A DNA stretch of 64,000 nucleotides from Pseudohongiella spirulinae (GTDB lineage: Bacteria > Pseudomonadota > Gammaproteobacteria > Pseudomonadales > Pseudohongiellaceae): the NCBI RefSeq assembly GCF_001444425.1, contig NZ_CP013189.1:3224001-3288000 (forward strand), given 5' to 3'. A program made the translations under genes and the position numbers. The notes under the pieces are model-generated. The model searched no databases. It was not told the origin of the DNA and saw nothing but the letters and a program-made list of their open reading frames with translations. Positions 30,590 through 49,656 of the stretch are shown here, piece after piece; within the stretch, counting starts at the first letter, position 1; every line of letters begins with the position of its first letter.

Positions 30590-30623
30590 AATGGCCCTCT
30601 ACCAACACCCATCAGGATGCCCA

Positions 30624-31946: not shown

Positions 31947-31983
31947 CCCAAAACTTACAATTGGACGAATAAAAACTTTGCCG

Positions 31984-32018: not shown

Positions 32019-32095
32019 TAATCTTAAGTTGACATAAGACTTGCGATTCCACGCCAAATTGAAATAGGATGAGGCGCTATATCAAAAACTCGCGA

Positions 32096-32107
32096 GTTTC
32101 TGACATA
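32096..32107 (+). promoter_or_regulatory. Third copy of the 12-bp motif, overlapping the fic start
   Basis: GTTTCTGACATA recurs exactly at 32096-32107; its last base is the A of the Fic ATG. Binding here would block transcription elongation or translation initiation. No Shine-Dalgarno sequence is visible between the motif and the start. Confidence 0.75.
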
Positions 32108-33985: not shown

Positions 33986-34039
33986 CAGGGAATACCAATC
34001 AGGCCATTCCTGCCTTTTGGGTCGGCTTAACCGTGTGCA

Positions 34040-34279: not shown

Positions 34280-34293
34280 GGCCGCCTCCAGCT

Positions 34294-34365
34294 TCATAAC
34301 TCGCTCAGGCACGCCAGAGCTCGAGCGTGATCTTCTGGTGTTTTGATGAGTTTTATGTCGTACAT
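34294..34365 (-). pseudogene. Short reading frame resembling an HTH antitoxin N-terminus
   Basis: ATG at 34365 opens 23 codons, MYDIKLIKTPEDHARALACLSEL, and a stop at 34294. The sequence looks like the first helix region of HigA-type antitoxins (family pattern IKPIRTEEDYEAALARIEEL). The stop lies 15 bases before the ParD GTG, so it could also act as a leader peptide for that gene. Evidence is by eye only. Confidence 0.4.
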
Positions 34366-34389
34366 CTTTAACCCCACCCCCGCCAATTC

Positions 34390-35652
34390 CTACATAGCCA
34401 GTCCAATCTGAAACGAATCTTCATGTTCTGATTTGGTTATGGCATGGATTCGCGGAACCATAATTCTGGCAACTTCCTCCATGACAGGTACGATCACGCT
34501 GTTACCAAACTGTTTGTATGCTTGAGTATCACTAACTGTTATCTTAAACGAATCTGGATATCCCATTAGTCTCGCGCACTCCCTTGGAGTCAATCTGCGA
34601 GGGCGCTTTCTGGTACCTTGAGAAACCAGAATCTCTGAGCCATCTTTGTAATATCTTGCAGACAAAGTCCGAGAGACCGAATCGCCTGTAACCAGGCCGA
34701 ATCCAAATCCGTTTCCAGCAGCCTTGTGCTTTGCAGCGTATGCCTGCAGATAGTCCCAGAGTTTCGGAGTAAGCGTATATTTTTCGTTAACCTTAGCTTT
34801 AGTGCCTTCAGTGTAAGGAAGTTCTGGCGATTCACTTCCGTCCTGTGGATGCAGAATATTCTTCATCCGGGGAGCGCTATCCGCCTTCGGTAGCTGCAGA
34901 TCCTCCCACGAAAAGTTTGTTCCCTCTCTAAACCCGACAATTATGATTCGCTCACGATGCTGAGGAACAAAATGCTGGCCATCAATTACTTTGTAATGAA
35001 CTTCGTAGCCAAGCTCATCGTGTAAAGTCTGAAGAATTACCTGAAAGGTATTACCTTTATCATGAGAGAGCAGATTCTTTACATTTTCCAGCAAGAACGC
35101 TTTCGGACGTTTAGCGGCGATAATACGCGCCACGTCAAAGAACAACGTACCTTGTGTTGCACATTCAAAACCGTGCGGTCTTCCCAGCGCATTTTTTTTG
35201 GAAACCCCGGCAATGCTGAAAGGCTGACAAGGAAAACCTGCCAGCAGCACGTCATGATCCGGGATATCATCTACATGGACCTGAGTGATGTCCCCTGCAA
35301 ACGAGTGATCAGCTGTCTCGGGGAAGTTAGCCAGATAGGTTTTCTGAGCGAAGTTATTCCATTCGCTGGTAAACACACAATGACCACCCTGCCTCTCGAA
35401 CCCGAGGCGAATACCACCTATGCCTGCAAACAGATCAATAAACTTAAATGAGCCGTCAGAATGTTTTCGATTGCTTTGAAATTGCAAAATGCGCTGCCGA
35501 ATTGCATCCGTAATGTAGGTTGGCGGCTCACATTCCTTAGCTTCCCAGCGACGCACTGTCCGTGCATCCACACCCAACAGTGACGCAATTTCCCTCTGAC
35601 TGTAGACTGTACGGGCTTTTTGGAGTAACTCAAGAGATTCGAGATTGTTCAT
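34390..35652 (-). CDS. Dcm/EcoRII-type DNA (cytosine-5-)-methyltransferase
   Basis: A 420-residue C5-cytosine methyltransferase. It shows motif I FKFIDLFAGIGGIRLGFE, motif IV GFPCQPFSIAGVSKKNALG with the catalytic Cys, motif VI LLENVKNL, motif VIII QHRERIIIVGF, and motifs IX-X RPRRLTPRECARLMGYPDSF...DTQAYKQFGNSVIVPV. The segments around motifs IV, VIII and the GNGFGFGLV/SRTLSARYYKDG recognition region closely resemble Dcm and M.EcoRII, so CCWGG is the likely target (inference). The N-terminus is a helix-turn-helix (SQREIASLLGVDARTVRRWE), suggesting self-regulation. Start at 35652 has AAGGA upstream. It is visibly AT-richer than the core genes. Confidence 0.93.
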   Translation of the reverse strand: MNNLESLELLQKARTVYSQREIASLLGVDARTVRRWEAKECEPPTYITDAIRQRILQFQSNRKHSDGSFKFIDLFAGIGGIRLGFERQGGHCVFTSEWNNFAQKTYLANFPETADHSFAGDITQVHVDDIPDHDVLLAGFPCQPFSIAGVSKKNALGRPHGFECATQGTLFFDVARIIAAKRPKAFLLENVKNLLSHDKGNTFQVILQTLHDELGYEVHYKVIDGQHFVPQHRERIIIVGFREGTNFSWEDLQLPKADSAPRMKNILHPQDGSESPELPYTEGTKAKVNEKYTLTPKLWDYLQAYAAKHKAAGNGFGFGLVTGDSVSRTLSARYYKDGSEILVSQGTRKRPRRLTPRECARLMGYPDSFKITVSDTQAYKQFGNSVIVPVMEEVARIMVPRIHAITKSEHEDSFQIGLAM

Positions 35653-35723
35653 TGAGGGGATCCTTATCTGGGTATTTTTGCGGACATAATGCCCTAAAGG
35701 ATTACCAAGCACAACCATTAAAA

Positions 35724-35739
35724 CTGTTTTTTTATACAG
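35724..35739. promoter_or_regulatory. LexA (SOS) box candidate between methyltransferase and vsr
   Basis: CTGTTTTTTTATACAG fits the gammaproteobacterial LexA consensus CTGT-N8-ACAG exactly and continues as ACAGTA on the right. It lies 72 bases upstream of the methyltransferase start and about 30 bases upstream of the vsr coding start, so it could control either or both divergent genes. Confidence 0.6.
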
Positions 35740-35769
35740 TAGTCATGATAATACTTTCCGGAGCTAATA

Positions 35770-36189
35770 ATCGATACCCTTACGCCTGAAAAGCGAAGCT
35801 GGAATATGAGCCGCATCAAGGCCAAAAACACCAGCCCCGAGCGCCGGTTAAGGACCCTTCTGCACCGATCCGGCTTTCGCTTCCGACTTCATGCGCACGA
35901 TTTACCGGGTAAGCCGGATATCGTGCTTCCCAAATACCGCACCGTCATTTTCGTAAATGGGTGTTTCTGGCACCGACATGAAGGCTGCCCATTCGCATAT
36001 ATCCCCAAATCCCGAACTGAATTCTGGCTTCCCAAATTTCAAAAGACCATTGAGAGAGATCTCCAGAAATCCAGGGAGTTAGAATGCGCTGGGTGGAATG
36101 TGATCGTCGCTTGGGAGTGTGAGATAAAGTCAGCACCCGAACAGACATTGGCACGAGTTATAGATGAAATGACCGTTCATCATGAATAG
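35770..36189 (+). CDS. vsr: Very short patch repair endonuclease Vsr
   Basis: Vsr nicks DNA at T:G mismatches created by deamination of 5-methylcytosine in Dcm-type sites. Family features are MSRIKAKNTSPERRLRTLLHRSGFRFRLH, DLPGKPDIVLPKYRTVIFVNGCFWHRHEGC and FQKTIERDLQKSRELECAGWNVIVAWECE. The first ATG is at 35806, but the conserved leader DTLTPEKRSWN continues upstream of it in frame to about 35770 with no ATG, GTG or TTG. A GGAG at 35760-35763 is placed for initiation at ATC 35770 or ATA 35767, so a non-standard start is proposed; otherwise the protein starts at 35806 and is truncated. It overlaps the endonuclease gene convergently by ten bases. Confidence 0.85.
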   Translation: MDTLTPEKRSWNMSRIKAKNTSPERRLRTLLHRSGFRFRLHAHDLPGKPDIVLPKYRTVIFVNGCFWHRHEGCPFAYIPKSRTEFWLPKFQKTIERDLQKSRELECAGWNVIVAWECEIKSAPEQTLARVIDEMTVHHE

Positions 36190-37415
36190 ATTCCCTGAAT
36201 CTCACGAATAAAGTCCTTGAATGTGTTTATGTGTTCTATCTGTCCGGACGCGTAGGTCGCGCGTACTGGCCAAGGAACGACCAGTTGAACGTTATGCTCT
36301 ATCATTTGTGCAGTTTGTTCATTTGATATTGATGGCTCTAGCGTAATCAGATGTTTCCGGGGAATTCTGCTCGCCTCTGATAGTATTTGGCGCCAACGCT
36401 CTTTGCATGTCGTCTTGGCTGCAAGCATCCTTAATCGCTCTGCCGGAAACGAAGGGCTGTGATACTCATTTTTACCCGGGAAGAGGAAGTCCGGTTTTTG
36501 GCTCCCTTCTGTGTGAACTCCACGCTGAAATCTTATTCCATTGTGTCTCAATAACTCTTCTATATGATTCTCGAAAGCATGCCCCACTCTCGACTTGCGG
36601 CGATTCTGTACGCTCAAGGAGAACCTGATGAATTCATCGATGTCATCGCCATTTTCGCCAAATCCAGTAGTCAGCCTTTCCTGAACGATATGGCGCTCCA
36701 GCAAACGAAACATCTTTTCTTCTTCTTCCATCCACCTGACCAATGCCAAATCAGGATCTTTGACTAACTCGACGTCTGTGACAAATCCCCTGGCAAAGGC
36801 AGAGAATACTTTCGTTGAGGGGAACGTATCTCCAAACTCATCGCGGATCATCTGAAGGCGCTTACTATCATCTTTGTCGGTGACTGTTAACTCGAAGCCA
36901 TACCTGGCCAGCATCAAGCGTATTGGGGAAACAACCTCAAGTCTCTCGATAGGTACACGCTTAAGAGAGTCGTCAATTTTAGTCTGGCTGGCACCAAACA
37001 ATGCTTGTAACTGGCGCTCCACTACCGTATCCGGACGACAGAAGATCATTAGGAGGGACCGATCTTTCGTAAATGCTATGAGACAAAAATCACCCTGCTG
37101 AAACTCTTCGGAAACATCGTTCGATCGGTAATACAGCCTGTATTCTGGCCGACGATGCTGCTGACTGTATCGACTGTCGTACCAAGTGACAATGTCTTCA
37201 CACACAATTGGTTCATCAGAATAATCATCGATATAAACCATGGTTGCGGGGAATACGAACTTATCTCCATTGGTGGGGTATCCCATAGCTTCGGCCATCC
37301 CAGCCTTCACAAGTCCACCGATCTCATGCTGGTTCGAAGTCCCCGGATCAGCGTCGACTGCTGTCAGGTACTTTACGGCGACGGCGCTAAATACATCTGT
37401 CAAATTTTCGAACAT
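36180..37415 (-). CDS. EcoRII-like type II restriction endonuclease
   Basis: The C-terminal 170 residues of this 411-residue protein match the EcoRII catalytic domain: SVQNRRKSRVGHAFENHIEELL, KPDFLFPGKNEYH, LRMLAAKTTCKERWRQILSEA (the PD...K nuclease core) and VQLVVPWPVRATY. The N-terminal 230 residues presumably form the effector DNA-binding domain, whose sequence I do not recognise in detail. EcoRII cuts before CCWGG and needs two sites. With the Dcm-type methyltransferase and Vsr beside it, this makes a complete CCWGG-type restriction set. The coding sequence is AT-rich compared with drmA and drmB. Confidence 0.88.
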   Translation of the reverse strand: MFENLTDVFSAVAVKYLTAVDADPGTSNQHEIGGLVKAGMAEAMGYPTNGDKFVFPATMVYIDDYSDEPIVCEDIVTWYDSRYSQQHRRPEYRLYYRSNDVSEEFQQGDFCLIAFTKDRSLLMIFCRPDTVVERQLQALFGASQTKIDDSLKRVPIERLEVVSPIRLMLARYGFELTVTDKDDSKRLQMIRDEFGDTFPSTKVFSAFARGFVTDVELVKDPDLALVRWMEEEEKMFRLLERHIVQERLTTGFGENGDDIDEFIRFSLSVQNRRKSRVGHAFENHIEELLRHNGIRFQRGVHTEGSQKPDFLFPGKNEYHSPSFPAERLRMLAAKTTCKERWRQILSEASRIPRKHLITLEPSISNEQTAQMIEHNVQLVVPWPVRATYASGQIEHINTFKDFIREIQGIYS

Positions 37416-37723
37416 TCCCTGCTCCTAGCGTACAACTTCGATGTGCGACAATATGACCTTGACTCTCGACGAGTTATTAAAGATCATCGAAGCGTTACCT
37501 GCAAGTACAGTGGTAAGAAGTTGGTATATTAGTGATTTCTAACTTTATCCGATTATCCGGAGAGCTTTCTTGATGAATGGACTTACAACTGTCGAACAAG
37601 TGACTCCCGCTAGCTGATTGTTTATATCTTAGATCAAATAGTTACTTCGTAAGTAAGTTACTGAGGGGTTTTCGAAACAGAGGTTGCCACTGATCTATTG
37701 GACACTTGCAGGAAGCATGCAGA
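37416..37723. other. Divergent intergenic region between endonuclease and helicase operon
   Basis: These 308 bases hold no gene that I can support. They are AT-rich and must contain the promoters of the leftward endonuclease and the rightward helicase operon. At 37642-37656 there is a dyad TTACTT-CGT-AAGTAA, extended by a further AGTTACT, which is a possible operator for the operon. I could not assign -10 or -35 elements with confidence. Confidence 0.5.
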
Positions 37724-39580
37724 ATGACCAGTTCACACGTTTGGGACAAAGATCAACTCGAGATTATTAGCAAAGCAAGCAACTTACGAATAATAGTTTC
37801 AGCAGGACCTGGAACGGGAAAAACTGCAATCGCATGCGCTAGGCTAGCGCACTTAATCAACGAATGTGACGTGGAGCCAAGCAATACTTGGTTGATTAGC
37901 TTCACGAGAACTGCTGTGGCTGAAATTCGCGCACGGCTGCATTCCTACGCCGGCGATGCCTCCTTCGCTATAAGGATAGCGACGATCGACTCACACGCAT
38001 GGTCCATCCACTCCGGACACGATCCGAATGCGAGACTGACCGGCTCCTATGAGGATAACATCGCCCGGGTCATTGGTCTCGTGAAATCGGATGAGGATGT
38101 CGCCGATGAATTGTCGCAGATTGAGCATATTGTCATCGATGAGGCGCAAGACCTCGTAGGACAGCGGGCAGACCTGATCGAGGAACTGGTAAAGAAATTG
38201 CCTTCAGACTGCGGGGTGACAGTCTTCGCTGACGAGGCCCAAGCTATTTATGGGTTCTCCGACGATAGTATCGGACATCGGAAAGACGGAGCAGTCAAAA
38301 CCGGTAAATCTCTGCTCGACAGGCTTCGCTCAGATAAATCCATGGGCTTCGACACACTAATCCTGAAGGAGATTTATCGCACGTCATCACCCGGGCTGCA
38401 AAAGATCTTCTCGGATCTGCGGAAGGACGTCCTCGACAAAAACAGGCATCGCGACGGCTTCCACGCCGAGACTGCAGAGCGGATCCGGGAGTATGCGGAC
38501 AAAAAGGGTTTGAAGTGGACCCAGATGAAGGTCGCTGACTTCACCAGAGACGATCTTCTGCTCTTCAGAACTCGCGGCGAAGTGCTGATGGCCTCCCAGT
38601 TTTGTGACCTCCCCCATCGGCTGCGCCTGTCAGGATACGGAGCGACGCTCCCGGCATGGCTCGCAATATGCTTCTCGGATTTTGTCGAGCCCCATCTGGC
38701 CGAGCGGCATTTCCTCGATCTCTGGGCCACACGTATCGAAAACAATGCTACACCGCAATACGGACCACGCGAAGCATGGCAGCACCTTGTGCGCGTTGCA
38801 GGGCGAAAGGATGGCTCGGTAGACATGCAGAGGCTGAGACGACGGTTGGGTCAGGCGCGCCCTCCGGTGGAACTGACCCTCCCCGAGTATGGTCTTCAAG
38901 GACCGATCGTCGGGACGATTCATGCCAGTAAGGGCCGCGAGGCAAGCAACGTCGTGTTGCTTCTTCCGAACGGCGCAGAATTCGAGAGCGCCGAGGACGA
39001 GGCCGAGGAAGCGAGAGTACTCTTTGTCGGCGCAACACGTGCTCGCACATCCCTGATCGTCGGTGAGAGTAACGCTTTCCGAGCGTCGACCCTCGCATCA
39101 GGCCGGGTTCATCGGTCCGTGAGGAACGGCAAATCCACGATGGTCGAAGTCGGTCGCGACGGGGACATAGCCGCTCGTGGACTCGTCGGCCGCAGCGAGT
39201 TCAGTGCGACCGATGCAAAAGCCGGTCAGGCCCTGCTCGCAAAAAATGCAGATGTCGTCACGACCTACAAGCTGGAAGCGGATCGTGCACTCGATTGGCG
39301 CTACAGAATACGCGTTGGCGACGATGGTCCATTTGTCGGCGTCATGTCACGCAATCTAAATTTCGACCTTTGGAAGATACTTGAGAACAAGAACCAGAAG
39401 CACAGTCACAATCCGCCAAGCAAGGTGAACCATGTCCGCGGTCAGGGTAGCGCCACTATCGTGCTGGCTCCCGATGACAGCGACCTCAATACGCTAAACG
39501 AGCCTTATGCCTCCTCAGGCTTCGTCCTCGCACCTAGAATTGCGGCCTTCCCTCCATTCTTCTTTTTTCATCGGAATTAG
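37724..39580 (+). CDS. UvrD/Rep-like SF1 ATPase, first gene of the DISARM-like operon
   Basis: A 618-residue superfamily 1 helicase-like protein. Motifs in order: Walker A SAGPGTGKTAIACARLA near residue 30, Ia WLISFTRTAVAEIRARL, II HIVIDEAQDLVGQ near residue 140, III VFADEAQAIYGF, IV ILKEIYRTSS, V GTIHASKGREASNVVLLLP near residue 400 and VI LFVGATRART. The last 150 residues are of no recognised family. The ATG at 37724 follows AGGAAG by eight bases. drmA begins five bases after its stop, so it is probably a component of that system. Typical DISARM operons are not known to me to carry this gene. Confidence 0.85.
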   Translation: MTSSHVWDKDQLEIISKASNLRIIVSAGPGTGKTAIACARLAHLINECDVEPSNTWLISFTRTAVAEIRARLHSYAGDASFAIRIATIDSHAWSIHSGHDPNARLTGSYEDNIARVIGLVKSDEDVADELSQIEHIVIDEAQDLVGQRADLIEELVKKLPSDCGVTVFADEAQAIYGFSDDSIGHRKDGAVKTGKSLLDRLRSDKSMGFDTLILKEIYRTSSPGLQKIFSDLRKDVLDKNRHRDGFHAETAERIREYADKKGLKWTQMKVADFTRDDLLLFRTRGEVLMASQFCDLPHRLRLSGYGATLPAWLAICFSDFVEPHLAERHFLDLWATRIENNATPQYGPREAWQHLVRVAGRKDGSVDMQRLRRRLGQARPPVELTLPEYGLQGPIVGTIHASKGREASNVVLLLPNGAEFESAEDEAEEARVLFVGATRARTSLIVGESNAFRASTLASGRVHRSVRNGKSTMVEVGRDGDIAARGLVGRSEFSATDAKAGQALLAKNADVVTTYKLEADRALDWRYRIRVGDDGPFVGVMSRNLNFDLWKILENKNQKHSHNPPSKVNHVRGQGSATIVLAPDDSDLNTLNEPYASSGFVLAPRIAAFPPFFFFHRN

Positions 39581-39585
39581 CTCCC

Positions 39586-42500
39586 ATGCAGGATAAATCA
39601 GCGGACAGAGACATCGTCGCACTCAGGCTTGCCGAGGACCTTGTCGGCCCCCGGGCCGAAGACGAAACACTCACAGCTCGGCCTTCTGATGTCTACCTGA
39701 CTGGCATCCTCTGGCCTCAGCGCACCGCCATGTCGGGCGAGGATGATGATCGCCTCGGCACAGCAGGAGCGAGCGCTGCGGAGGAAAGCGATGGCGAAAG
39801 CGATGCCGTTCGGACCGGATCAGTTCAGAAGCCTTCCGTCGCTGGCATATCCTTCAGCACAAAGGCGGAGGGTATCGCGAAGGTACGCTTCGTCTGCAGC
39901 TTTGGAACCTATCGGACAGAGAAACGCGACGATGGCGAAGTATGGGTTCGGCAACCCCACAGTGTGGAAATTGCGGCCGTTGAACTAACGCCCGGTCCGA
40001 CGCGCGAGATCCAGCTTGCCGAGCATGGAAATGGTCTTCCTGTAGTTTCTCTCAGCGTCAGATGCATCAAGGCTAAGGATACCGTCTTGGCTACTCTCGC
40101 TCTGGTCAATTCGGTGGTTCCAGAGCAGGACCGAAACGAGATCGAGGCGGCCTCTCTCTTTCAGACTTCGCTCCGCATCGAGCCCTGCGAGGGAACTCTG
40201 CTGGTCCCAAAGCCTCCAAGACGCGCAGCTCCGGTAGAGCCGACCGAAACCTGCGCGGTCGGCGACGAGGAGAGCGGAACGCTCCTTTACAGGAACGTCG
40301 CGGAGTTTGCCGTCGGCCACGTCTGTTCGGCCGAGTGGGAAGAGGCAGAGGCTTCGGCAGGCTCACAACCCCATGCTCGGTGGGTTGCGACGACATGGCT
40401 GCCATCGACCATTGTCGAGGGAGTGGATCCCAATGGTCATCCATATTTCGCAGAGCTGGGAAATGAACAAGGGACATTCGACCCTCTTCTGGCCGAGGCG
40501 CTGGCCTCCGCTGACTCGACAACCCTTAAGAACGGACTTGTCACCTTCTGTGACGCCTATGCTCGGTGGATCGAGACACAGAAGAAGCGGCTGGAAGATA
40601 CCGGGGACGTCGCCCCAACCCTGAGGCATGTTGCCCATGCGCATCTCATCCAGTGCGACAAAGCCCTGGATCGCATGCGAGCCTCAGTTGATGAACTCGA
40701 CACCAACCCGAGGCTACGGAGAGCGTTCCAGCTGGCAAACTTCGCCATGCACCTGCAGCACTCGTGGGACAAGTCGAAGGGTCGTCACGGCTCCCTCCGC
40801 TGGCGCCCGTTCCAGCTGGGTTTTCTGCTTCTGAGCGCTCCGTCGTCGGTGCTCCGGGATCACGAGCACCGAGGAGTCATGGATCTGCTCTGGTTCCCGA
40901 CGGGTGGCGGCAAGACCGAGGCTTACCTGGCGCTGATCGCGTGCATCGCCGTCTACCGACGCCTCTCAGACAATGCGGACGACCACAGCGGCGTTTGCGC
41001 CCTAATGCGCTATACGCTTCGTCTTCTTACAACCCAACAGTTTGCGCGGTCCGCCGCAATGATCGTGGCCCTTGAGGCCATCCGCTCTGGTCGGGTGGCC
41101 GCTCCCAAGGGACTTCCCCTTAAGGGCAGAGAGCCTTTTTCGATCGGCCTGTGGGTTGGCAGTGATGCTACCCCCAACAAACGGAAAGCCGCTTACGCTT
41201 CCATCGTCCAGCGCTCGCAGGAGGTAGCTTCGCCAAAGCAACTCGCACGTTGCCCTGCCTGCGAATCGAAGCTGAACTGGTCGATAGCAAGCTCGACATC
41301 GCCTGTGGAGGTTTCATGCGAGAACCCCGAATGCGCGATCTACGGGCTGCTCCCTGTCCATACCGTGGACGAGGATGTCTACGACAATCGTCCGACGCTG
41401 ATCATTGGAACGGCAGACAAGTTCGCTCAGGTGGTTCGTGAAAAGCGAACCAACAGCCTGTTTGCCGTCTCGGAAGGGTCCCCTCCTGACCTAATCATCC
41501 AGGACGAGCTTCATCTCATTTCCGGCCCGCTCGGGACAATTGCTGGCGTCTATGAGTCCGCTTTCGACCTGATGTTTGCCGCGCGCGGACATCGCGCCAA
41601 GGTCATCGGCTCGACTGCTACAATCCGCAGGGCGCCGGAACAGGTTCTGGCGCTTTTTGATCGCGGGGCGTTCCAGTTTCCGCCGCCGGCGATCGACCAT
41701 GACGATTCAGGGTTTGCGGTGCGCGACCGTCGCCCCAGCGCCAAAGGACGGAGATATCTCGGGGTCACGACGGCCGGGCGATCCGCAAAGTTCACCCTTC
41801 AGGCAGTGGCTGGCTCCCTGCTGCAGACTGCCTTCGGAGCGTTCAGCGACGATGTCCGTAGGGACGCCTACTGGACGCTTGTCGGCTACTTCAACTCTCT
41901 TCGGGAGCTCGGCGGCGCCCTTGTTCTGATGCAGGATGACGTCACCGACAGTATAGCGCTCTACGCGAATGTTCGGTCAGAAGAGAAGCGCCCTCTTAGC
42001 AACGTCGAAGAACTTACCTCTCGCCGGACACAGGAGGAGATCCGCGAGATGCTCGACCTTCTCGATATCAAGGTTGGGGCTCCTGGTGCAGTCGATGCAG
42101 TGCTTGCGACTAACATGGTTAGTGTCGGCGTCGACATCTCCCGACTCGGGCTGATGCTTGTCAACGGGCAACCAAAGACGATCGCAGAGTACATCCAGTC
42201 GACGAGCCGCGTCGGGCGTGGTGACGTGAGCGGCCTTGTAGTTTCGGTCCTCAACAACGCCAAGGCAAGGGACCGCTCGCATTTCGAGACGTTTTGCAGC
42301 TGGCATCGCACATTGTACAGGGACGTTGAGGCCACAAGCGTCACACCTTTCGCTTCGCGTGCTCGCGACAGGGCGCTACATGCCTCTTTTGTAGCGGCAG
42401 TACGCCATCTGGTTCCGGCCATGCTCGACTCCCCTCGAATGGAAGACGAGGCGGAAGACGCGGCGATGGATCTCATCGACCTCATTGTCGAGCGGGCAAA

Positions 42501-42771
42501 GCGCATCGATCCCGAAGAGACAGCTGTGCGGGATGAACTAGAACGGCGCCTCGACACATGGAGAGCAAGATCGCCGACGGTCTACTGGAGTGACTACAAG
42601 GGGGGTAAATCCCTTTTGCAAAGCGCCGAACGCGCTGCCGCACGTCGAGCATCCGGACGTGATGCTGGCGCCGCATGGCCTACCCTCAACTCCATGCGGA
42701 CCGTCGAGGCCGGAACCCCCTTCAGGATGGCCCCAATACTGAGAGCAAAGGACGATACGCATGAAGAATGA
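39586..42771 (+). CDS. drmA: DrmA-like DISARM helicase
   Basis: A 1061-residue superfamily 2 helicase resembling DrmA of DISARM. The N-terminal region (ALRLAEDLVGPRAEDETLTARPSDVYLTGILWP) is typical of DrmA. Helicase motifs are LLWFPTGGGKTEAYLALIA (Walker A, near residue 440), LIIQDELHLISGPLGT (motif II, DELH, near residue 635), GSTATIRR (motif III), TNMVSVGVDISRLGLMLVNGQPKTIAEYIQSTSRVGRG (motifs V-VI, near 850-875). A CPAC...CENPEC cluster near residue 555 may bind zinc. DrmA with DrmB forms the DISARM core that engages incoming phage DNA. The start overlaps nothing; the 3' end overlaps drmB by 11 bases. Confidence 0.88.
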   Translation: MQDKSADRDIVALRLAEDLVGPRAEDETLTARPSDVYLTGILWPQRTAMSGEDDDRLGTAGASAAEESDGESDAVRTGSVQKPSVAGISFSTKAEGIAKVRFVCSFGTYRTEKRDDGEVWVRQPHSVEIAAVELTPGPTREIQLAEHGNGLPVVSLSVRCIKAKDTVLATLALVNSVVPEQDRNEIEAASLFQTSLRIEPCEGTLLVPKPPRRAAPVEPTETCAVGDEESGTLLYRNVAEFAVGHVCSAEWEEAEASAGSQPHARWVATTWLPSTIVEGVDPNGHPYFAELGNEQGTFDPLLAEALASADSTTLKNGLVTFCDAYARWIETQKKRLEDTGDVAPTLRHVAHAHLIQCDKALDRMRASVDELDTNPRLRRAFQLANFAMHLQHSWDKSKGRHGSLRWRPFQLGFLLLSAPSSVLRDHEHRGVMDLLWFPTGGGKTEAYLALIACIAVYRRLSDNADDHSGVCALMRYTLRLLTTQQFARSAAMIVALEAIRSGRVAAPKGLPLKGREPFSIGLWVGSDATPNKRKAAYASIVQRSQEVASPKQLARCPACESKLNWSIASSTSPVEVSCENPECAIYGLLPVHTVDEDVYDNRPTLIIGTADKFAQVVREKRTNSLFAVSEGSPPDLIIQDELHLISGPLGTIAGVYESAFDLMFAARGHRAKVIGSTATIRRAPEQVLALFDRGAFQFPPPAIDHDDSGFAVRDRRPSAKGRRYLGVTTAGRSAKFTLQAVAGSLLQTAFGAFSDDVRRDAYWTLVGYFNSLRELGGALVLMQDDVTDSIALYANVRSEEKRPLSNVEELTSRRTQEEIREMLDLLDIKVGAPGAVDAVLATNMVSVGVDISRLGLMLVNGQPKTIAEYIQSTSRVGRGDVSGLVVSVLNNAKARDRSHFETFCSWHRTLYRDVEATSVTPFASRARDRALHASFVAAVRHLVPAMLDSPRMEDEAEDAAMDLIDLIVERAKRIDPEETAVRDELERRLDTWRARSPTVYWSDYKGGKSLLQSAERAAARRASGRDAGAAWPTLNSMRTVEAGTPFRMAPILRAKDDTHEE

Positions 42772-44635
42772 GTTGCAGGAACTGAGGCGAAGCGCAGTCG
42801 TTTCTACCTTTGGTCCAGGTTCCGTCGTGGACTTCAGGGCAGGTGGCGGAGCCGTCTCTGGCATAGCTGCGGGGCTCGAGGAATGGGATCGATCCTTTCC
42901 TCCGGCAGGGCTGGCGCACCCGCAGCTCATCCGCGAGACGCGCCTCCAGAAGAAGCTTGGCGTCAAGGGATTCAGAACGCCCCCAGTTGCGCTCGAACGG
43001 GGAATGGAAGGCGATCCGGATACCCGACGGCTTGTTGCCGTGCGCTTCCCGAAATGGCTGCAATGCCCCAGCTGCGATATGATCAAGCCTGAGCGCCGAT
43101 GGAAGAATGACCCGGGTAAGGCCTATCGTTACTGCCCGACGTGCACCGAAACGACACATGGCGACAGCAAGGTCTTTGTCATCCCAGTCCGCTTCGTCAT
43201 GGCTTGCAAGCATGGGCATGTTGACGAGTTTCCGTGGGATTGGTGGGTCGGCCACAGACCTGAATGTTTAGTGGCGAAGCGGGAAAATCCGGATCGCCAC
43301 CCGGGACTTGTCCTGAGGTCAGAGAGGCCGGGGCTTGCCGGTCTTATCCTCAGCTGCCCGAAGTGTGGTGCGCGCCGATCAATGGATGGCGTCTTTTCCA
43401 AGAAGACGTGGGAACGCGGCCCCAAATGCCACGGCTATCGACCATGGCTGGCCGATGGCGATGAAAGCTGTGGCAAGGAGCAATACGCAGTTCAAAGAGG
43501 GGCGTCGAACCTGTATTTCGCCGTTACGGAGTCCGCTCTGAGCATTCCACCTTGGTCGGATACCCTGCAGGAAGATTTGGGCGACTTGTGGAGCGATCTG
43601 ACAGACCTCGATGATCTTTCAACACTGGAGAACTACATTCATCATGGTCTAAGCAATCCATTCGTGCGCAGCAAATTGGAGAGTATACTAAAGGAGCGAG
43701 AGCTGTCGCCAGGTCAGCTGGCGGAGGCGATCCGCGCCCGTCTCACGTCTTACGGACAGCTGCGGACTGATGATCTGAGACCGGCAGAGTATCGGCAGTT
43801 CGTCACGGAACCCGGTCGCAGCAGAACGCTCGACATCGACTTCGAAACACGCCGGGAGTCCGTCGCCACCGAGATTGTCCCATGGATTTCTCGGGTCGTG
43901 AGGGCTGTCCGGTTAAGAGAGGTGCGAGCCATTAAAGGCTTCACCCGTATCAATCCACCAGGCGATCCGGACTCACCAGAGGTCGCTCGTCTCTCCAAGG
44001 AGCCGCTTGAATGGCTGCCAGCCATCGAGGTCCGCGGCGAAGGCATTTTTCTCGCCCTGAACGAGGACCGCTTGTCGAGCTGGGAAAACCGGCCAGACGT
44101 CATGGCGCGTGTTTCCCAGTGCGAGACGCGGCACCAAGCCGACTGGAAGGAACGGTACGGAGAAGACGGTAAGCCACCTCAGACGATCAGCCCGCGTTAC
44201 ATGCTCTGCCACACCCTTGCGCATGCTCTCATGCGTCAACTCACGCTTGAATGCGGATACTCGTCGGCATCTCTCCAAGAGAGGATCTACGCCGGTACTG
44301 GCGAGGAGCAGATGGCGGGACTTCTCATCTATACCGCGACCACCGACTCGGATGGAACGCTTGGAGGGCTTGAACGTCAAGGGAAGTCGGGGCGCATTGC
44401 AGGCATTCTCCAACGTGCAATCGATGCGATCGAATGGTGCTCTTCGGACCCGCTCTGCATCACTGACATGATGGGAGCAGAGAAAAGCTATTCCCATTCG
44501 GTGTGCCACTCCTGCTGTCTTGCCCCGGAGACAGCGTGTGAAGCGTTCAACAGCTTCCTCGACCGTGCACTCCTCACCGGCGACGGCACGAACTCGGGCC
44601 TCGGCTACTTCGAAGAGATGCTTCGGAGAAGCTGA
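42761..44635 (+). CDS. drmB: DrmB-like DUF1998 protein
   Basis: A 624-residue DUF1998 protein matching DrmB. The N-terminus MKNELQELRRSAVVSTFGPGSVVDFRAGGG is the hallmark of the family. Zinc-binding-like cysteines occur at CPSCDMIK...YCPTC and CPKCGARR; the DUF1998 part includes HTLAHALMRQLTLECGYSSASLQERIYAG, LIYTATTDSDGTLGGLERQG and the terminal CHSCCLAPETACEAFN. DrmB binds DrmA in characterised DISARM. It overlaps drmA by 11 bases and the NERD-helicase gene by one base (TGATG), so the three are translationally coupled. Confidence 0.9.
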   Translation: MKNELQELRRSAVVSTFGPGSVVDFRAGGGAVSGIAAGLEEWDRSFPPAGLAHPQLIRETRLQKKLGVKGFRTPPVALERGMEGDPDTRRLVAVRFPKWLQCPSCDMIKPERRWKNDPGKAYRYCPTCTETTHGDSKVFVIPVRFVMACKHGHVDEFPWDWWVGHRPECLVAKRENPDRHPGLVLRSERPGLAGLILSCPKCGARRSMDGVFSKKTWERGPKCHGYRPWLADGDESCGKEQYAVQRGASNLYFAVTESALSIPPWSDTLQEDLGDLWSDLTDLDDLSTLENYIHHGLSNPFVRSKLESILKERELSPGQLAEAIRARLTSYGQLRTDDLRPAEYRQFVTEPGRSRTLDIDFETRRESVATEIVPWISRVVRAVRLREVRAIKGFTRINPPGDPDSPEVARLSKEPLEWLPAIEVRGEGIFLALNEDRLSSWENRPDVMARVSQCETRHQADWKERYGEDGKPPQTISPRYMLCHTLAHALMRQLTLECGYSSASLQERIYAGTGEEQMAGLLIYTATTDSDGTLGGLERQGKSGRIAGILQRAIDAIEWCSSDPLCITDMMGAEKSYSHSVCHSCCLAPETACEAFNSFLDRALLTGDGTNSGLGYFEEMLRRS

Positions 44636-46311
44636 TGGCAGTAATTTGGCCACGAAAGCTACCCCGGTCGATCTTAGATGACCCACGTCGGAAGGCAGAG
44701 GTTCGGGTTTACAACCGCCTAGCCGATGTTCTCGACGACAGCTTCCATGTCTTTTACTCGAGTCCTTGGCTGGGAACGGACAGGCTGGGAAATGAGAAGG
44801 ATGGAGAGTGTGACTTTCTCGTAGCTCATCCACTTCTAGGCATACTAGCTATAGAGGTGAAAGGTGGAAAAGAAATCTCTTTTGATCCTGCTGACGGACT
44901 GTGGCGCAGCACAGATCATTATGGATTTATACATAAGATCAAAGACCCTGTTGCACAGGCACGAAGCGCAAAGCATGAAATGCTGTCAAGACTAAACAGC
45001 TCCCGCCACTGGCCTAAGAGAAAAATCTATGCCGCTCATGGAGTAATATTTCCGAGCGTTGCGTCTCCCTTGACGAATCTAGGGTCAGACAAGCCTGCCG
45101 CAATATTTTGTTGCGCAAAACAATTTAACCGTGGGTTCTTGACTTGGATTCGCCAACGATTGAGGGAAGGGCAAACACCGTCGGACTGCAAACCCTTAGG
45201 GCACGACGGCGTGGCAGCTTTGACAAATGCACTGGCGCACCCATTTAGACTCAGCTTCCGAGTCGGTGCTGCGTTATCAGAGGCAGCTGCTGAATTTTCA
45301 ACTTTAGAACCCTCACAATATCACATTCTAGAGATGATTCAGGACTTGCCTCGTGCTCTTATTAAAGGTGGAGCTGGCACAGGAAAGACCGTACTTGCTA
45401 TCCAAGAGGCCATCGGATCAGCACAACTTGGCTATAAAACCCTCTTCGTATGCCATGGACGATCATTAGCCAGATATGTCAAAACCAAGACAGCGGAAAT
45501 TAACAACCTTTTCGTTTTGAGCTTCCATGAATTGTGTGGATTTGCAGCCCATCAAGCCGGTATTCAAATCAACTCTGTACAAGAAAAAAAAGCACTGTAT
45601 AACGATGCCTTGCCTAACTCACTTTACGAAGCTGTACATTTAAACCCTTCATTGAAGTGGGATTCAATCGTTGTAGATGAAGGCCAGGATTTTAAAAATA
45701 CGTGGTGGATTGCGATTGAAGCCTGCATCAACAAGAACGGTAGACTACGAGTTTTTATGGATAGCAATCAACAAGTTTACGGGGATGGAGACTCGTCTTT
45801 GCAAGACCTTAGCGCCATCCCTATACGATTAACCAGAAATCTAAGAAACACCAAGAACATTCACAACGCAGCAATGCTGCATTACTTTGGGCCAATGATT
45901 ACCGCTGACGGCCCTGACGGGCTGGATGTCAATTGGATCATAGCAGAAAATCATCAGAACAAGCTTGTGCTGGCTAAAAAGGAATTGAGGCGTCTAATAA
46001 TTAATGAAGATGCCAAACCAAGCGAAATAGCAATTCTTGTAAATTCCCAAAATGCAAAGAACGAATTCTTAGCGCTTACTGAAGGTTCGGGCATAAACTT
46101 CACTGATGCGGACAATCTGTTAAGTGATTCAGTTGTGGTTGACACTGTTTTAAGATTTAAAGGGCTTGAACGCCCAGCGGTGATATTGTTGGTGTTGGGA
46201 GACGAGATAGCGCGCCGTGAGTTCGCATATGTAGCAATATCTAGGGCAAAAGCGTACTTGGCGGTTGTCGCCTCCAATTCTGAAATAAGAATGCTGTCAC
46301 AGGAGACATGA
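44635..46311 (+). CDS. NERD nuclease-like domain fused to SF1 helicase
   Basis: A 558-residue protein with two parts. Residues about 15-130 form a NERD domain (RRKAEVRVYNRLAD, DGECDFLVAHPLLGILAIEVKGG), related to PD-(D/E)xK nucleases with the E...ExK pattern present. Residues 230-550 form a UvrD-like helicase: IKGGAGTGKTVLAIQEA, VVDEGQDFKNTWW, VFMDSNQQVYGD, TRNLRNTKNIHNAA, VVDTVLRFKGLERPAVILLV and YVAISRAKAYLAVVAS. It starts at the drmB stop, so it belongs to the same operon, and may replace the missing DrmC nuclease (inference). It is clearly AT-richer than drmA and drmB, suggesting a separate origin. Confidence 0.85.
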   Translation: MAVIWPRKLPRSILDDPRRKAEVRVYNRLADVLDDSFHVFYSSPWLGTDRLGNEKDGECDFLVAHPLLGILAIEVKGGKEISFDPADGLWRSTDHYGFIHKIKDPVAQARSAKHEMLSRLNSSRHWPKRKIYAAHGVIFPSVASPLTNLGSDKPAAIFCCAKQFNRGFLTWIRQRLREGQTPSDCKPLGHDGVAALTNALAHPFRLSFRVGAALSEAAAEFSTLEPSQYHILEMIQDLPRALIKGGAGTGKTVLAIQEAIGSAQLGYKTLFVCHGRSLARYVKTKTAEINNLFVLSFHELCGFAAHQAGIQINSVQEKKALYNDALPNSLYEAVHLNPSLKWDSIVVDEGQDFKNTWWIAIEACINKNGRLRVFMDSNQQVYGDGDSSLQDLSAIPIRLTRNLRNTKNIHNAAMLHYFGPMITADGPDGLDVNWIIAENHQNKLVLAKKELRRLIINEDAKPSEIAILVNSQNAKNEFLALTEGSGINFTDADNLLSDSVVVDTVLRFKGLERPAVILLVLGDEIARREFAYVAISRAKAYLAVVASNSEIRMLSQET

Positions 46312-46513
46312 TTTGCTTTACACCTTCAATTACCCAAGCACCGCAGATCCATTGGCTGTTTTCGGGGTGTGGGTTACGATTACTTAGCTCAGCCAAGCGC
46401 TAGTCAGCAGCATAGCCTCTGCCGCCTCGACGTCACTCCGACAAATCGGAACTGCGCTAAGTCTCATTGCACGTCGTCTTGACCTCTGCCCCGATAGTAC
46501 CCAATATTCAGCC
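46312..46513. other. Intergenic region after the helicase operon
   Basis: About 200 bases with no gene that I can support. A leftward open frame (46384 to about 46515) has no start signal and no recognisable product and may be a remnant. No terminator hairpin with a T tail and no tRNA or attachment-site repeat was seen. Confidence 0.4.
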
Positions 46514-46915
46514 ATGACAACACTCCCAACAAGCAAACCCTGTCCCTTCTGCGCCCTGGGCGAACGTGAGCTTCTGGCCAGCAATACCAGCGGTTTTTCT
46601 ATTTTCGACAATTACCCCATTTCGCCCGGCCATGCGCTGATCATCCCCCGGCGACATGTCGGCTCCTTCTTTGAGTTGTCGAAGACGGAGCGGGACGATC
46701 TGTTTGATCTGATTGAGCAAGTGAAGGCGAAGCTTGACGGTCAGTTTGCGCCTGACAGCTATAACATCGGCATCAACGATGGGCCCGCAGCAGGTCAGAC
46801 AATCGGGCACTGCCATATCCATCTGATCCCCCGCTATCGGGGGGACATGCCGGACCCGCGTGGCGGCGTGCGCTGGATTATCCCCGGCAAAGCCGACTAC
46901 TGGTCGAAACCATGA
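46514..46915 (+). CDS. HIT family hydrolase paired with an HNH nuclease
   Basis: A 133-residue histidine-triad protein: PCPFCALGERELLASN, FDNYPISPGHALIIPRRHVGSFFEL, NIGINDGPAAGQTIGHCHIHLIPRYRGD. The HxHxH motif is intact. This subgroup resembles AP4A hydrolase/diadenosine-type HIT proteins. It differs from the HIT protein at 18961. The stop overlaps the HNH gene start by four bases, so the two are co-expressed. Confidence 0.9.
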   Translation: MTTLPTSKPCPFCALGERELLASNTSGFSIFDNYPISPGHALIIPRRHVGSFFELSKTERDDLFDLIEQVKAKLDGQFAPDSYNIGINDGPAAGQTIGHCHIHLIPRYRGDMPDPRGGVRWIIPGKADYWSKP

Positions 46916-47970
46916 GCACGCTATCCGCTAAAGCTCAGCTCGCCTTTCTGGAAAAAATTCAGCGTCTGTTTGATGAAGGCGAATTCACTGCCACCTACAA
47001 GTTTGCCTTGATGCTGACACTGACCGAACTGGCAATCGAGCGCGGCACGGATGATGACGCGCAGCTGGCTTTGCCGCTCGATATTGTGGCGGAGCGATTC
47101 ATGCTGCTGTACTGGCGTCAGGCGAGCACATTTGGGCGCGCTACAGAGGATAATAAACACGGCTTACTGATTCAGAATCTGGGCAAGCAGGCGGCGGTCA
47201 TCAATCGTATTCGGGATATTTACCATGATGTGAATGGTAACCCTGCCAGGGCGCCGGGCCACCGCGATTGGCGAAAAACGGTCACCAGCGTGCGTGGCAT
47301 TGTTCACAACATGCCACTTCGTCACTTGCAGATCATCGGCGGCCAGAATGATCGCTTTCTATATGACTACCCATGCCTGAACAAAACGCTTGTTTTGAAA
47401 CGCGGCGTCAGCCATCACTTACGCCGCTTCAGTCCCTTGATTCAGCAACTGGCGAAAGCGGGTTGGATTGAGCATATTCGCAGCAACAGTCGTAACGCAT
47501 CCTTGCTCGGCAAGAAGGATGATCTTGAAGCCTTTATGTTTGGCACGCCACGGGCACAACTCACAAAAGTTGCAGAGGATTTAACACTGCGCCAGAACGG
47601 ACGCTGCTTCTATTGTCAGAAGAAACTTCACGACGCTGTCGAGGTGGATCACTTTATCCCCTGGTCGCGATATCCACGCGACACGGCTCATAATTTTGTA
47701 GTGGCGCATCGCGGCTGCAATAATGACAAACGCGACATGCTGGCAGCAAAAAAACATCTGGAACGGTGGCTGGAGCGAAACGATCGCTGCGGTCATGAAT
47801 TAGGTGAGTCATTGGCCAGCCACGGTTTTGTCGCCGACATCGGCAGCTCGCTGGAAGTGGCGCGCTGGGCTTATGGCGAAGCGGTCAGAATGCAGGGTAT
47901 TGCCTGGATTGCCCCGCGCCGACAGACGGAGGCAATCGATCCGCAGTATCTGGCAGCATTCAAATGCTGA
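46912..47970 (+). CDS. HNH endonuclease domain protein
   Basis: A 352-residue protein whose C-terminal part has a clear HNH nuclease core: LRQNGRCFYCQKKLHDAVEVDHFIPWSRYPRDTAHNFVVAHRGCNNDKRDMLAAKKHLERW, with the CxxC zinc half and the DH/N/H-type catalytic residues. The N-terminal 200 residues are helical (FALMLTLTELAIERGTDDDAQLALPLDIVAERFMLLYWRQ) and of unknown role. It follows the HIT gene with an ATGA overlap. A defence or DNA-processing role is inferred only from domain and location. Confidence 0.88.
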   Translation: MSTLSAKAQLAFLEKIQRLFDEGEFTATYKFALMLTLTELAIERGTDDDAQLALPLDIVAERFMLLYWRQASTFGRATEDNKHGLLIQNLGKQAAVINRIRDIYHDVNGNPARAPGHRDWRKTVTSVRGIVHNMPLRHLQIIGGQNDRFLYDYPCLNKTLVLKRGVSHHLRRFSPLIQQLAKAGWIEHIRSNSRNASLLGKKDDLEAFMFGTPRAQLTKVAEDLTLRQNGRCFYCQKKLHDAVEVDHFIPWSRYPRDTAHNFVVAHRGCNNDKRDMLAAKKHLERWLERNDRCGHELGESLASHGFVADIGSSLEVARWAYGEAVRMQGIAWIAPRRQTEAIDPQYLAAFKC

Positions 47971-48435
47971 TCAGCGAGTAAAGATCTGGTTAAACGGATT
48001 GTTGCCGAATCCATCACCGATGCGGATAAAGCCATGCTCGGTCACCTGATGGCAGCTATTGCATGATTGCACCACGCCGGCAAATGCAGTTCGCATGCCC
48101 TGCAAGTTTTCTTCATCCAGTCTGTCTTCCAGCGTTTCCAGTGCAGGCTCGAGCATTGATTCTGTCAATTCGGCAATCGGGAAGCCATCATAGGACTCAA
48201 CAGAGTCAATCAGATCCTCAACCGCTTCCTCCAATTCGTGATGGTAGAAATCGATCAATTCAAGATTACCCGCCTCAATGGAAAGCGCCAGCTTATGTGT
48301 CCAGTACTGCATGTCCTTCATTTGCACCGCCAGGCCAGGCGTATAAGTTTGCACGCTGGAATTAACGCTACAGCCAGTCACCAGAACAGTACTGGCAGCA
48401 ATGGCGGCAGTCATCAGTCTTGCAGTGTGTATCAT
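47971..48435 (-). CDS. Lipoprotein with a CxxCH haem motif
   Basis: A 154-residue protein with a lipoprotein signal (MIHTARLMTAAIAASTVLVTGC) and a single haem-attachment motif, CNSCH, near residue 130. The body is helical and acidic (YWTHKLALSIEAGNLELIDFYHHELEEAVEDL), resembling four-helix class II cytochromes c or related haem-binding lipoproteins, with the motif close to the C-terminus as in that class. It may accept electrons in the envelope. The stop directly abuts the HNH gene end (convergent). Confidence 0.75.
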   Translation of the reverse strand: MIHTARLMTAAIAASTVLVTGCSVNSSVQTYTPGLAVQMKDMQYWTHKLALSIEAGNLELIDFYHHELEEAVEDLIDSVESYDGFPIAELTESMLEPALETLEDRLDEENLQGMRTAFAGVVQSCNSCHQVTEHGFIRIGDGFGNNPFNQIFTR

Positions 48436-48482
48436 ACGGCGGTGTCCTTCTCTTATCGTTTAATTATCGCCAGTTTGTCTTG

Positions 48483-48896
48483 TCACGCACCAAAAGTCGA
48501 GACTGCATCGACGTAATACCATCGCCCCCCAACCCGAATAAACCGCGACCGCTCATGATGCACCTGAACCTGCCCATCATCGTCACACCAATATGCCTTG
48601 AACTCCACCATGGCGCTATCACCCGATTGACTGCTATCCAGCACCTCCAGCTTCACCCAATCGGTATCTGACGCACCCATATCCTGCGCACTGACGGCGG
48701 GCCGGGTATCCGGATGCCAGGTCTGCAGCAGGTAGTCACCCAGGCCACCAATCGCAAAAGCACTGTAGCGCGAGCGCATCAGTTGCTTTGCGGTGCGGGC
48801 GTGGTGTTTGCCGGTGTGCAGTGGGCCGCAGCAAGCGGCGTAGCGTTTGCCACTGTCGCAGGGGCAGGTTTGTGGATAGCATTTGTCCTTGTCCAT
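48483..48896 (-). CDS. YchJ family SEC-C motif protein
   Basis: A 137-residue UPF0225/YchJ protein. The N-terminal SEC-C-like zinc motif is CPCDSGKRYAACCGPLHTGKH, followed by TAKQLMRSRYSAFAIGGLGDYLLQTWHP and the NTF2-like end VEFKAYWCDDDGQVQVHHERSRFIRVGGRWYYVDA. Function is unknown. The ATG at 48896 has GGAG six bases upstream; an earlier in-frame start lacks one. Confidence 0.92.
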   Translation of the reverse strand: MDKDKCYPQTCPCDSGKRYAACCGPLHTGKHHARTAKQLMRSRYSAFAIGGLGDYLLQTWHPDTRPAVSAQDMGASDTDWVKLEVLDSSQSGDSAMVEFKAYWCDDDGQVQVHHERSRFIRVGGRWYYVDAVSTFGA

Positions 48897-49004
48897 AGGG
48901 AGCTCCGCGAGCTTGGTCATAGCCCGTGTTATAACGACCAACGTGCAATATTGGCAAATTTTCTGATGGGCAGCTATCCTGACCGCCTCAAGAGGAGATC
49001 AACC

Positions 49005-49157
49005 ATGACCATTAACAGCCAGCAGGACATCGACGGCATTTTGCGTGTTGGCCGCGTGGTGACGATTGTGCGCGACACCATGCTGGATGCGCTGGAGCCG
49101 GTGGATATTGTCACTCGCGGCGCGCCCATTGTTGCGACCTGCTCCGTAGCAGCGTAA
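49005..49157 (+). pseudogene. Truncated N-terminus of a type I methionine aminopeptidase
   Basis: The ATG at 49005 has a strong GAGGAG site and encodes MTINSQQDIDGILRVGRVVTIVRDTMLDALEP, which matches the N-terminal helix of type I methionine aminopeptidases. After this the sequence departs (VDIVTRGAPIVATCSVAA) and stops at residue 50; no metal-binding catalytic residues remain. It looks like the 5' end of a map gene joined to unrelated DNA. It could still be translated. Confidence 0.6.
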
Positions 49158-49167
49158 TGGTCCAGTC

Positions 49168-49653
49168 ATGAGTAAGTCGCAAGACACAAGCTTTCTGGCC
49201 GAGGCCATTAACCTGGCGGTTGACTCCGTGCAAAGCGCCGGCGGGCCGTTTGGGGCGGTGATTGTCTGTGAAGGTGAGGTGATTGCCCGCGCCAGCAATC
49301 GGGTCACCGTTAATCACGATGCGTCGGCACATGCCGAGGTTGAGGCTATCCGCCAGGCCGGCGCCCGGCTGGGGCGTCCGCATCTGCAGGATTGTGTGCT
49401 GTACGCCAGTTGTGAGCCCTGCCCCATGTGTCTGGCGGCTGCATTGTGGGCCCACATTCCGCGAATTGTGTTTGCGGCCCCGCATGCGCAGGCCATTCGT
49501 GCGGGTTTTGCGGATACTGACATCGCCATGCAGCTTTACGGTCAGGCACGGCCGGTGGCACCGGCACAGGGCCTGCTGACCCATCTGGATCTGCCGCAGG
49601 CCGCCTCACCCTTTGATGCCTGGCTGGCTAAAACCGACCGCGAGGCTTACTGA
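49168..49653 (+). CDS. Guanine deaminase / nucleoside deaminase
   Basis: A 161-residue cytidine-deaminase-fold enzyme. Zinc and catalytic residues are in SAHAEVEAIRQA (HAE) and SCEPCPMCLAAALWA (PCxxC). GGPFGAVIVCEGEVIARASNRV and the C-terminus PFDAWLAKTDREAY resemble the GuaD guanine deaminase of Bacillus, which hydrolyses guanine to xanthine. tRNA adenosine deaminase (TadA) is less likely because of the GGPFGAVIV and C-terminal features. It starts ten bases after the map remnant. Confidence 0.85.
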   Translation: MSKSQDTSFLAEAINLAVDSVQSAGGPFGAVIVCEGEVIARASNRVTVNHDASAHAEVEAIRQAGARLGRPHLQDCVLYASCEPCPMCLAAALWAHIPRIVFAAPHAQAIRAGFADTDIAMQLYGQARPVAPAQGLLTHLDLPQAASPFDAWLAKTDREAY

Positions 49654-49656
49654 TCC

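Follow-up and report, generated by a model that had tools for sequence, protein, structure and literature searches.

A predicted DISARM-branch operon of Pseudohongiella spirulinae with SF1 helicase genes on both sides of drmAB

Introduction

DISARM anti-phage systems are described in PMC12458937 as typically carrying a phospholipase D (PLD) nuclease gene after the DUF1998 gene, with many DISARM-like classes still uncharacterised. The PADLOC definitions given in PMC9252829 distinguish a type I, comprising DrmA, DrmB, DrmC, DrmD and DrmMI, from a type II, comprising DrmA, DrmB, DrmC, DrmE and DrmMII. A structural study reports that Serratia DrmAB binds single-stranded and 5'-tailed DNA and that 5-methylcytosine lowers its ATPase activity, and refers to the degradation of phage DNA by a nuclease as a mystery, with DrmC dispensable and often missing (PMC9142583). 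Here we describe a related locus of Pseudohongiella spirulinae (assembly GCF_001444425.1), located in a window of 64,000 nucleotides that spans positions 3,224,001-3,288,000 of the forward strand of contig NZ_CP013189.1 and whose own numbering is used below. Four rightward open reading frames (ORFs) at 37724-46311 encode a UvrD/GajB-like superfamily 1 (SF1) helicase, DrmA, DrmB and a NERD-SF1 fusion. We consider it probable that they constitute an anti-phage operon of the DISARM branch, in which accessory and effector genes around DrmAB are exchanged and the NERD-SF1 protein serves as the degrading effector. Lengths are given in amino acids (aa).

37724..39580, plus strand: gene 1, UvrD/GajB-like SF1 helicase, 618 aa from an ATG (6 aa longer if translation starts at the in-frame TTG at 37706)
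39586..42771, plus strand: gene 2, DrmA, YprA-family superfamily 2 helicase, 1061 aa
42761..44635, plus strand: gene 3, DrmB, DUF1998/MZB zinc-binding partner of DrmA, 624 aa
44635..46311, plus strand: gene 4, N-terminal NERD PD-(D/E)xK domain followed by an SF1 helicase, 558 aa, in the drmC slot

Comparison with described defense systems

Judged from its sequence, the operon is in the DISARM branch, as a variant that falls outside the published type I and type II definitions, and the five-gene definitions of PMC9252829 would not report it as either. The DrmA helicase and DrmB (DUF1998) are encoded by separate adjacent genes, a feature of this branch, and match both the DISARM models and the Serratia pair; further likenesses are the sensor valine of DrmA, a cytosine methyltransferase and an association with restriction-modification (R-M) genes. 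The locus departs from both types in adding a UvrD-like SF1 gene before drmA and the NERD-SF1 gene after drmB, in having no drmC, drmD/drmMI or drmE that could be found, and in the length of DrmA, 264 aa less than that of the Serratia chain. Neither DrmC, DrmD nor DrmMI was detected in the operon or in 15 flanking window proteins, scanned against Pfam and in part against NCBIfam and PADLOC. A C5 methyltransferase of the DrmMII type, a component of type II, is present on the other strand and scores 463 bits against DrmMII, but 533 bits against the type II methyltransferase model. Scanning ten window proteins, the product of gene 1 among them, against NCBIfam revealed no DrmE, and the DrmE model NF038316 had no hit in 274 genomes, that of P. 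spirulinae among them, a weak negative in that no control genome passed the cut-off (of 14, one gave a match below it). No PLD match follows drmB, and a single DrmC query, run without a positive control, had no match in the genome. This agrees with the initial annotation of this DNA, which had described a DISARM-like operon without DrmC; the gene after drmB encodes the NERD-SF1 protein instead.

Partial likenesses extend to other systems. ARMADA type II likewise has a YprA-family helicase and a UvrD helicase resembling GajB, the latter shown to be essential in that system but carrying a fused RelE-like domain (PMC12458937). TALON pairs a YprA-family helicase with a NERD nuclease; it differs in its ARMADA-like YprA, TPR-CSD and TBP genes and is rare and mostly found in Chloroflexota (PMC12458937), whereas the NERD domain studied here is fused to an SF1 helicase, and no ARMADA-like YprA, TPR-CSD or TBP protein occurs among the window proteins scanned. 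Relative to GajB of Gabija, gene 1 has an additional C-terminal region, and GajA (OLD-type TOPRIM nuclease) is absent from the PADLOC matches listed for the four proteins (for gene 1, the best 25 of 49). The best PADLOC match of gene 4 is the reverse-transcriptase-associated RTasNERD-Hel, from which it differs in its linkage to drmAB; the ORFs scanned include no reverse transcriptase. Searches of the open-access literature yielded no description of an SF1-drmA-drmB-NERD operon.

Operon structure and the DrmAB core

Gene identities, operon structure, conservation, co-inheritance and the invariance of catalytic residues and sensor valine in aligned sets were all computed. The recomputed spacing of the four ORFs (5, -11 and -1 bases) and their coordinates match the order and spacing first reported, and profile searches bear out the proposed identities (UvrD-like, DrmA, DrmB, NERD-SF1), placing the 1061- and 624-aa proteins within DrmA and DrmB. 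DrmA matches the PADLOC DrmA model at 652 bits and NCBIfam DISARM_DrmAS at 853 bits (E 3.5e-256), under the curated cut-off of 950, a score that fits a divergent subgroup. DrmB scores 501 bits against NCBIfam DrmB_fam (cut-off 240), and the two proteins match the solved Serratia DrmA and DrmB (7s9v) at 426 and 285 bits, respectively.

Residues K443, D640, E641 and H643 of DrmA are present in 77/77 aligned sequences, window included. V1040 aligns with V1296, the proposed methylation sensor of Serratia DrmA, and the position holds valine in 76 of these sequences and isoleucine in one. At the other end of the protein, where Serratia DrmA has its trigger loop (residues 176-232), the N-terminal 273 residues of DrmA have no PDB sequence match, and the local alignment begins at residue 154 here and at 313 in Serratia.

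Recurrence and co-inheritance of the flanking genes

A DrmB-alignment profile scan of genome contigs identified at least 530 DrmB relatives, of which the best 80 were kept, a choice that favours close relatives. Together with five plasmid loci these form a set of 85 loci (L002-L086), annotated by profiles built from the four proteins. The region upstream of drmA could be tested in 73 loci (12 are cut by contig ends), and that downstream of drmB in 80 (five are cut). An SF1 gene lies upstream of drmA in 69 loci, a drmD-like helicase gene in three, and one locus is disrupted by insertion elements; the 69 take in a fragment of only 192 aa (L077) and two loci relabelled by hand (L073, L084), where an over-long drmA ORF hid the SF1 gene. 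Downstream of drmB we found NERD-SF1 in 59 loci, DrmC in eight, another plus-strand ORF in three and nothing in ten. NERD-SF1 (59 loci) and DrmC (nine loci) never occur in one locus.

The complete four-gene order is present in 50/85 loci by automatic label, or 51 with L084, and is found on plasmids of Shinella, R. rhizogenes, Azospirillum and R. ruizarguesonis. Most of the related loci examined share this gene order, so the arrangement is not due to chance, and both flanking SF1 genes recur beside drmAB in several phyla, as the variant system first proposed would have it. Apart from four plasmid records, the 50 loci with SF1 and NERD-SF1 come from Pseudomonadota (42) and, once each, from Bacteroidota, Synergistota, Bdellovibrionota and Cyanobacteriota. 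SF1 is combined with DrmC in five loci, two of Myxococcota and one each of Actinomycetota, Elusimicrobiota and Acidobacteriota. Several of these loci come from metagenome bins, so phylum labels may err.

Pairwise identities of DrmB correlate with those of drmA at 0.964 (n=76), nerd at 0.943 (n=59), sf1 at 0.923 (n=68) and the methyltransferase at 0.306 (n=50), and 0/500 permutations reached any of the four observed values. The contrast between the high and the low correlations indicates that the two SF1 genes belong to the unit and that the methyltransferase is exchanged.

A DrmB tree of 96 rows, with the fragments L077 and L078 left out and 12 plasmid rows added, was inferred by a quick method; several long branches meet and the outgroup does not fall on one side of a branch, so that its deep nodes are unsure. 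SF1-linked rows are all contained in one group of 78 rows (Shimodaira-Hasegawa-like approximate likelihood ratio test 84, not strong), except for L084 and Tsukamurella, which branch nearby. The window is enclosed in starred groups of 4, 17 and 19 rows, every row of which carries NERD. The nerd label requires 6-7 changes on the tree versus 29 when shuffled, and the methyltransferase label 23 (a count without shuffle control).

In a sister clade with 21 full-flank loci, a DrmD/DpdE-like helicase is encoded in 18 of them and a protein of ~1000 aa in 19. The latter (L005:1358-4324, minus strand; also L045, L053, L055, L069 and L072) pairs with the DrmD/DpdE-like SNF2 helicase, divergently from sf1-drmA-drmB, and has no match in Pfam, PADLOC or NCBIfam (one member scanned) or in the PDB (alignment of six). 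A search for phage carriage gave no match in 50,697 phage records, and five relatives were found in IMG/VR contigs.

The two SF1 helicase genes

Gene 4 matches the NERD profile PF08378 at 34.6 bits (cut-off 22.1), UvrD_C_2, and PADLOC RTasNERD-Hel at 189 bits over residues 9-546; a sequence search of the PDB returned only a weak match to Schlafen 11 (E 0.0024). Its NERD residues E22, E58, D60, E74, K76 and Q108 and its SF1 residues K251 and D348/E349 are identical in 59/59 sequences, window included, and R537 in 58, the remaining sequence having a gap. Gene 1 matches UvrD-helicase PF00580 (E 3.8e-26), with GajB as its best PADLOC model (75 bits). It has a Walker A lysine, K33, and a Walker B pair, D139/E140, and these residues, together with Q173, R219, H400 and R439, are identical in 68/68 sequences, window included. 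In a fold comparison its core is nearest UvrD, Rep and AdnAB, the additional C-terminal region beyond about residue 455 being barely covered (residues ~455-618). In the aligned sets, the NERD active site and all three motors are intact.

Gene 1 was also considered as DrmE and rejected, for lack of a match in the NCBIfam scan; the genome search with NF038316 was empty too, with the weak control noted above.

The homologues of gene 1 differ in N-terminal extensions of ~0 to 310 residues ahead of the helicase core (e.g. L004, L045), a variable part that is a possible sensor or adaptor; the window protein has none. Three loci (L008, L010, L054) have a tandem pair of genes of this SF1 family ahead of drmA. 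A WYL-domain family, the domain having been scanned in one member only (L009:3918-4922), directly precedes the SF1 gene in L008, L009, L011 and L054 and lies three genes ahead of it in L002; it is a possible regulator.

Gene 4 looks mosaic, and recombination may have swapped its helicase part. Residues 1-117 are 82-88% identical to ten sisters (L002, L007-L009, L011, L013-L015, L018, L019) and residues 118-540 are 56-58% identical, with 72% and 56% for these parts in L010 and L054; three sister NERD-SF1 pairs drop less, to 95, 78 and 71% in the second part. The G+C content of the two parts is 0.49 and 0.45, and that of drmA/drmB 0.59-0.60.

Proposed mechanism and alternative explanations

Complex formation, the direction of action, DNA degradation and self-protection by methylation are what we infer in the following scheme. 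DrmA-DrmB would form the sensor-translocase, engaging invading DNA that is unmodified and either single-stranded or 5'-tailed, in line with what is reported of Serratia DrmAB. NERD-SF1, in place of DrmC, would be a helicase-nuclease degrading the DNA that DrmAB has engaged, and the UvrD/GajB-like SF1 protein a second motor that might unwind DNA or clear proteins for DrmAB and NERD-SF1, or gate them; a helicase role for gene 1 is plausible because ARMADA type II, itself a YprA-family system, cannot do without its GajB-like helicase (PMC12458937). The host might be spared by 5-methylcytosine from the neighbouring Dcm-like methyltransferase, or from another in the genome, lowering the activation of DrmAB. 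DNA degradation by NERD-SF1, assisted by the GajB-like helicase, would be the most economical reading of these sequences. That NERD supplies the nuclease function had been proposed at the outset; the invariant PD-(D/E)xK residues and the sharing of one slot with DrmC, never in one locus, strengthen this proposal short of proving it, with the correction that the NERD gene is not universal, since in 13/80 testable loci drmB is directly followed by neither NERD-SF1 nor DrmC. The chances are about even that such operons form a distinct and widespread third DISARM class, in which DrmAB would load invading DNA onto a RecBCD- or Dna2-like NERD-SF1 with a UvrD-like motor, and in which exchange of the post-drmB effector (NERD-SF1, PLD DrmC or none) would be a main route of diversification.

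Several results weigh against this scheme. The trigger loop of Serratia is not recognisable by sequence in the conserved part of DrmA. In one subclade (L070-L076, L082) and a few loci besides, drmA-drmB, with SF1 where testable, has neither a NERD nor a DrmC gene next to it, so that a nuclease is not always needed in cis; DrmC is moreover reported to be dispensable (PMC9142583), and the post-drmB slot may therefore be auxiliary. As for self-protection, no methyltransferase was found within ~10 kb in five of the 24 full-flank loci of the window clade, the methyltransferase is swapped freely (r 0.306 with drmB), and the genome encodes another C5 methyltransferase near C1:453000.

The distribution of NERD-SF1 genes away from this operon bears on a different explanation, namely that two independent modules are stacked here, a DrmAB-SF1 system and a separate NERD-SF1 defense gene that came to lie behind it by chance. 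NERD-SF1 was sought in evenly drawn genomes, in a class set of 369 (E <=1e-20) and a phylum set of 398 (E <=1e-60), both including P. spirulinae itself, and matches were obtained in 27/369 and 4/398 genomes, own included. These leave 29 other genomes, of which the neighbourhoods of ten (7/26 and 3/3) were examined. Five adjoin drmA/drmB homologues: L178 has a complete four-gene operon, in L179 and L181 NERD-SF1 lies upstream, and in L175 and L176 it is convergent with a weak drmB-like match (48-49 bits). The other five, one of them on a 3.8-kb contig, lie away from drmAB, so that NERD-SF1 is not a dedicated DISARM gene, a further point against the proposed scheme. In one of these the NERD-SF1 gene directly follows a TmtA gene (L173:2416-6807), which suggests that NERD-SF1 serves several defense systems. 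A NERD-type protein is also encoded ahead of drmA on two plasmids, one from Rhodococcus opacus and one from Deinococcus gobiensis.

Stacked modules would account for these placements, and for the reverse-transcriptase-associated NERD-helicase being the nearest PADLOC model of gene 4. However, the start of gene 4 overlaps the drmB stop in the window, NERD-SF1 occupies this same place in 59/80 testable loci, and it is co-inherited with drmB nearly as tightly as drmA is, whereas swapping of the kind seen for the methyltransferase would be expected of a stacked module. We regard chance stacking as unlikely. The occurrence of NERD-SF1 both beside and away from drmAB marks it as a mobile defense module stably adopted by this DrmAB branch.

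It is quite unlikely that DrmAB, with its SF1 motor, blocks phage DNA on its own and that NERD is a backup directed at host DNA, whose cleavage kills the infected cell. Such a role would be in keeping with the reported dispensability of DrmC in tested DISARM (PMC9142583), with the suicidal backup proposed for the NERD domain of PglW in type 2 BREX (PMC12839542) and with the 13 testable loci that have neither nuclease directly after drmB, but the invariance of the active site (59/59) and its fusion to a UvrD-like SF1 motor fit DNA degradation, and ARMADA type II, with four essential genes including the GajB-like helicase, is reported to act directly rather than by abortive infection (PMC12458937). 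An operon for DNA repair or recombination, suggested by the repair activities of YprA-family (YprA/MrfA-like) and UvrD-family helicases and by the likeness of the gene 1 core to UvrD, Rep and AdnAB, is very improbable for genes that match DISARM models in DrmA and DrmB, are accessory within the genus (see below), lie in a variable interval that carries restriction genes in this genome and different cargo in others, and also occur on plasmids.

A large group of DISARM-type operons has a predicted helicase-nuclease in the DrmC slot, with an invariant active site and inheritance together with drmAB, and the slot after drmB is one exchanged between unrelated nucleases. NERD-SF1 offers a defined enzyme, amenable to simple point mutants, for testing the effector step of DISARM and thus which enzyme cuts the DNA.

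Genomic context

The range initially annotated (37724..46311) is slightly too narrow, as three further genes adjoin it upstream. The operon as such stands, with the correction that it has a C5 methyltransferase ~2 kb upstream, encoded on the opposite strand.

34390..35718, minus strand: C5-cytosine methyltransferase, Dcm/DrmMII-like, 442 aa (PF00145 E 8.4e-89; PADLOC MTase_II 533 bits, DrmMII 463 bits)
35806..36189, plus strand: Vsr (very short patch repair) endonuclease (PF03852 E 8.4e-26)
36180..37415, minus strand: EcoRII-C type II restriction endonuclease, 411 aa (PF09019 E 4e-69; PADLOC REase_II)
30452..49656, no strand assigned: variable interval holding the operon, between yicC (29558-30451) and a DUF2959 gene (49657-50298)

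The true start of Vsr is probably upstream of the listed ATG, as the open frame extends further in that direction. The three upstream genes look like a Dcm/EcoRII-like R-M unit with the EcoRII-C enzyme as its restriction half, for which these families would predict CCWGG specificity, and the methyltransferase is a possible self-marking enzyme. Among the 24 full-flank loci of the window clade, 19 have a C5 methyltransferase nearby and 15 Vsr. The methyltransferase was considered as an integral part of the operon and rejected, its free exchange (r 0.31; 23 tree changes) arguing against a fixed partner, though it is often nearby.

Both genes bordering the interval lie on one contig in 7/14 other genomes of the genus. 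They are separated by ~1 kb in G375 and G381, 8.2 kb in G382, 9.9 kb in G369, 14.1 kb in G370, 16.3 kb in G377 and 24.0 kb in G376, compared with 19.2 kb here. A tblastn search with 14 window proteins (E 1e-6) found no operon or R-M genes in these seven intervals, its sole matches between the borders being ychJ (G375, G381) and a Fic protein (30%, G382). None of the 14 other same-genus genomes gave a DrmA match; across all 55 relatives searched, four gave matches at E 4.9e-4 to 8.5e-4, restricted to short helicase motifs. Since DrmA has no match in the other same-genus genomes searched and the contents of the interval vary, the operon is accessory, and it was probably acquired horizontally. 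Three of ten ORFs from three of the other intervals match PADLOC models (E 1e-10), two as DpdE-like helicases (G382, G370) and one as an RtcR-like regulator (G370). Downstream of the operon in P. spirulinae lie genes for a HIT protein and for an HNH protein with weak PtuB-like matches.

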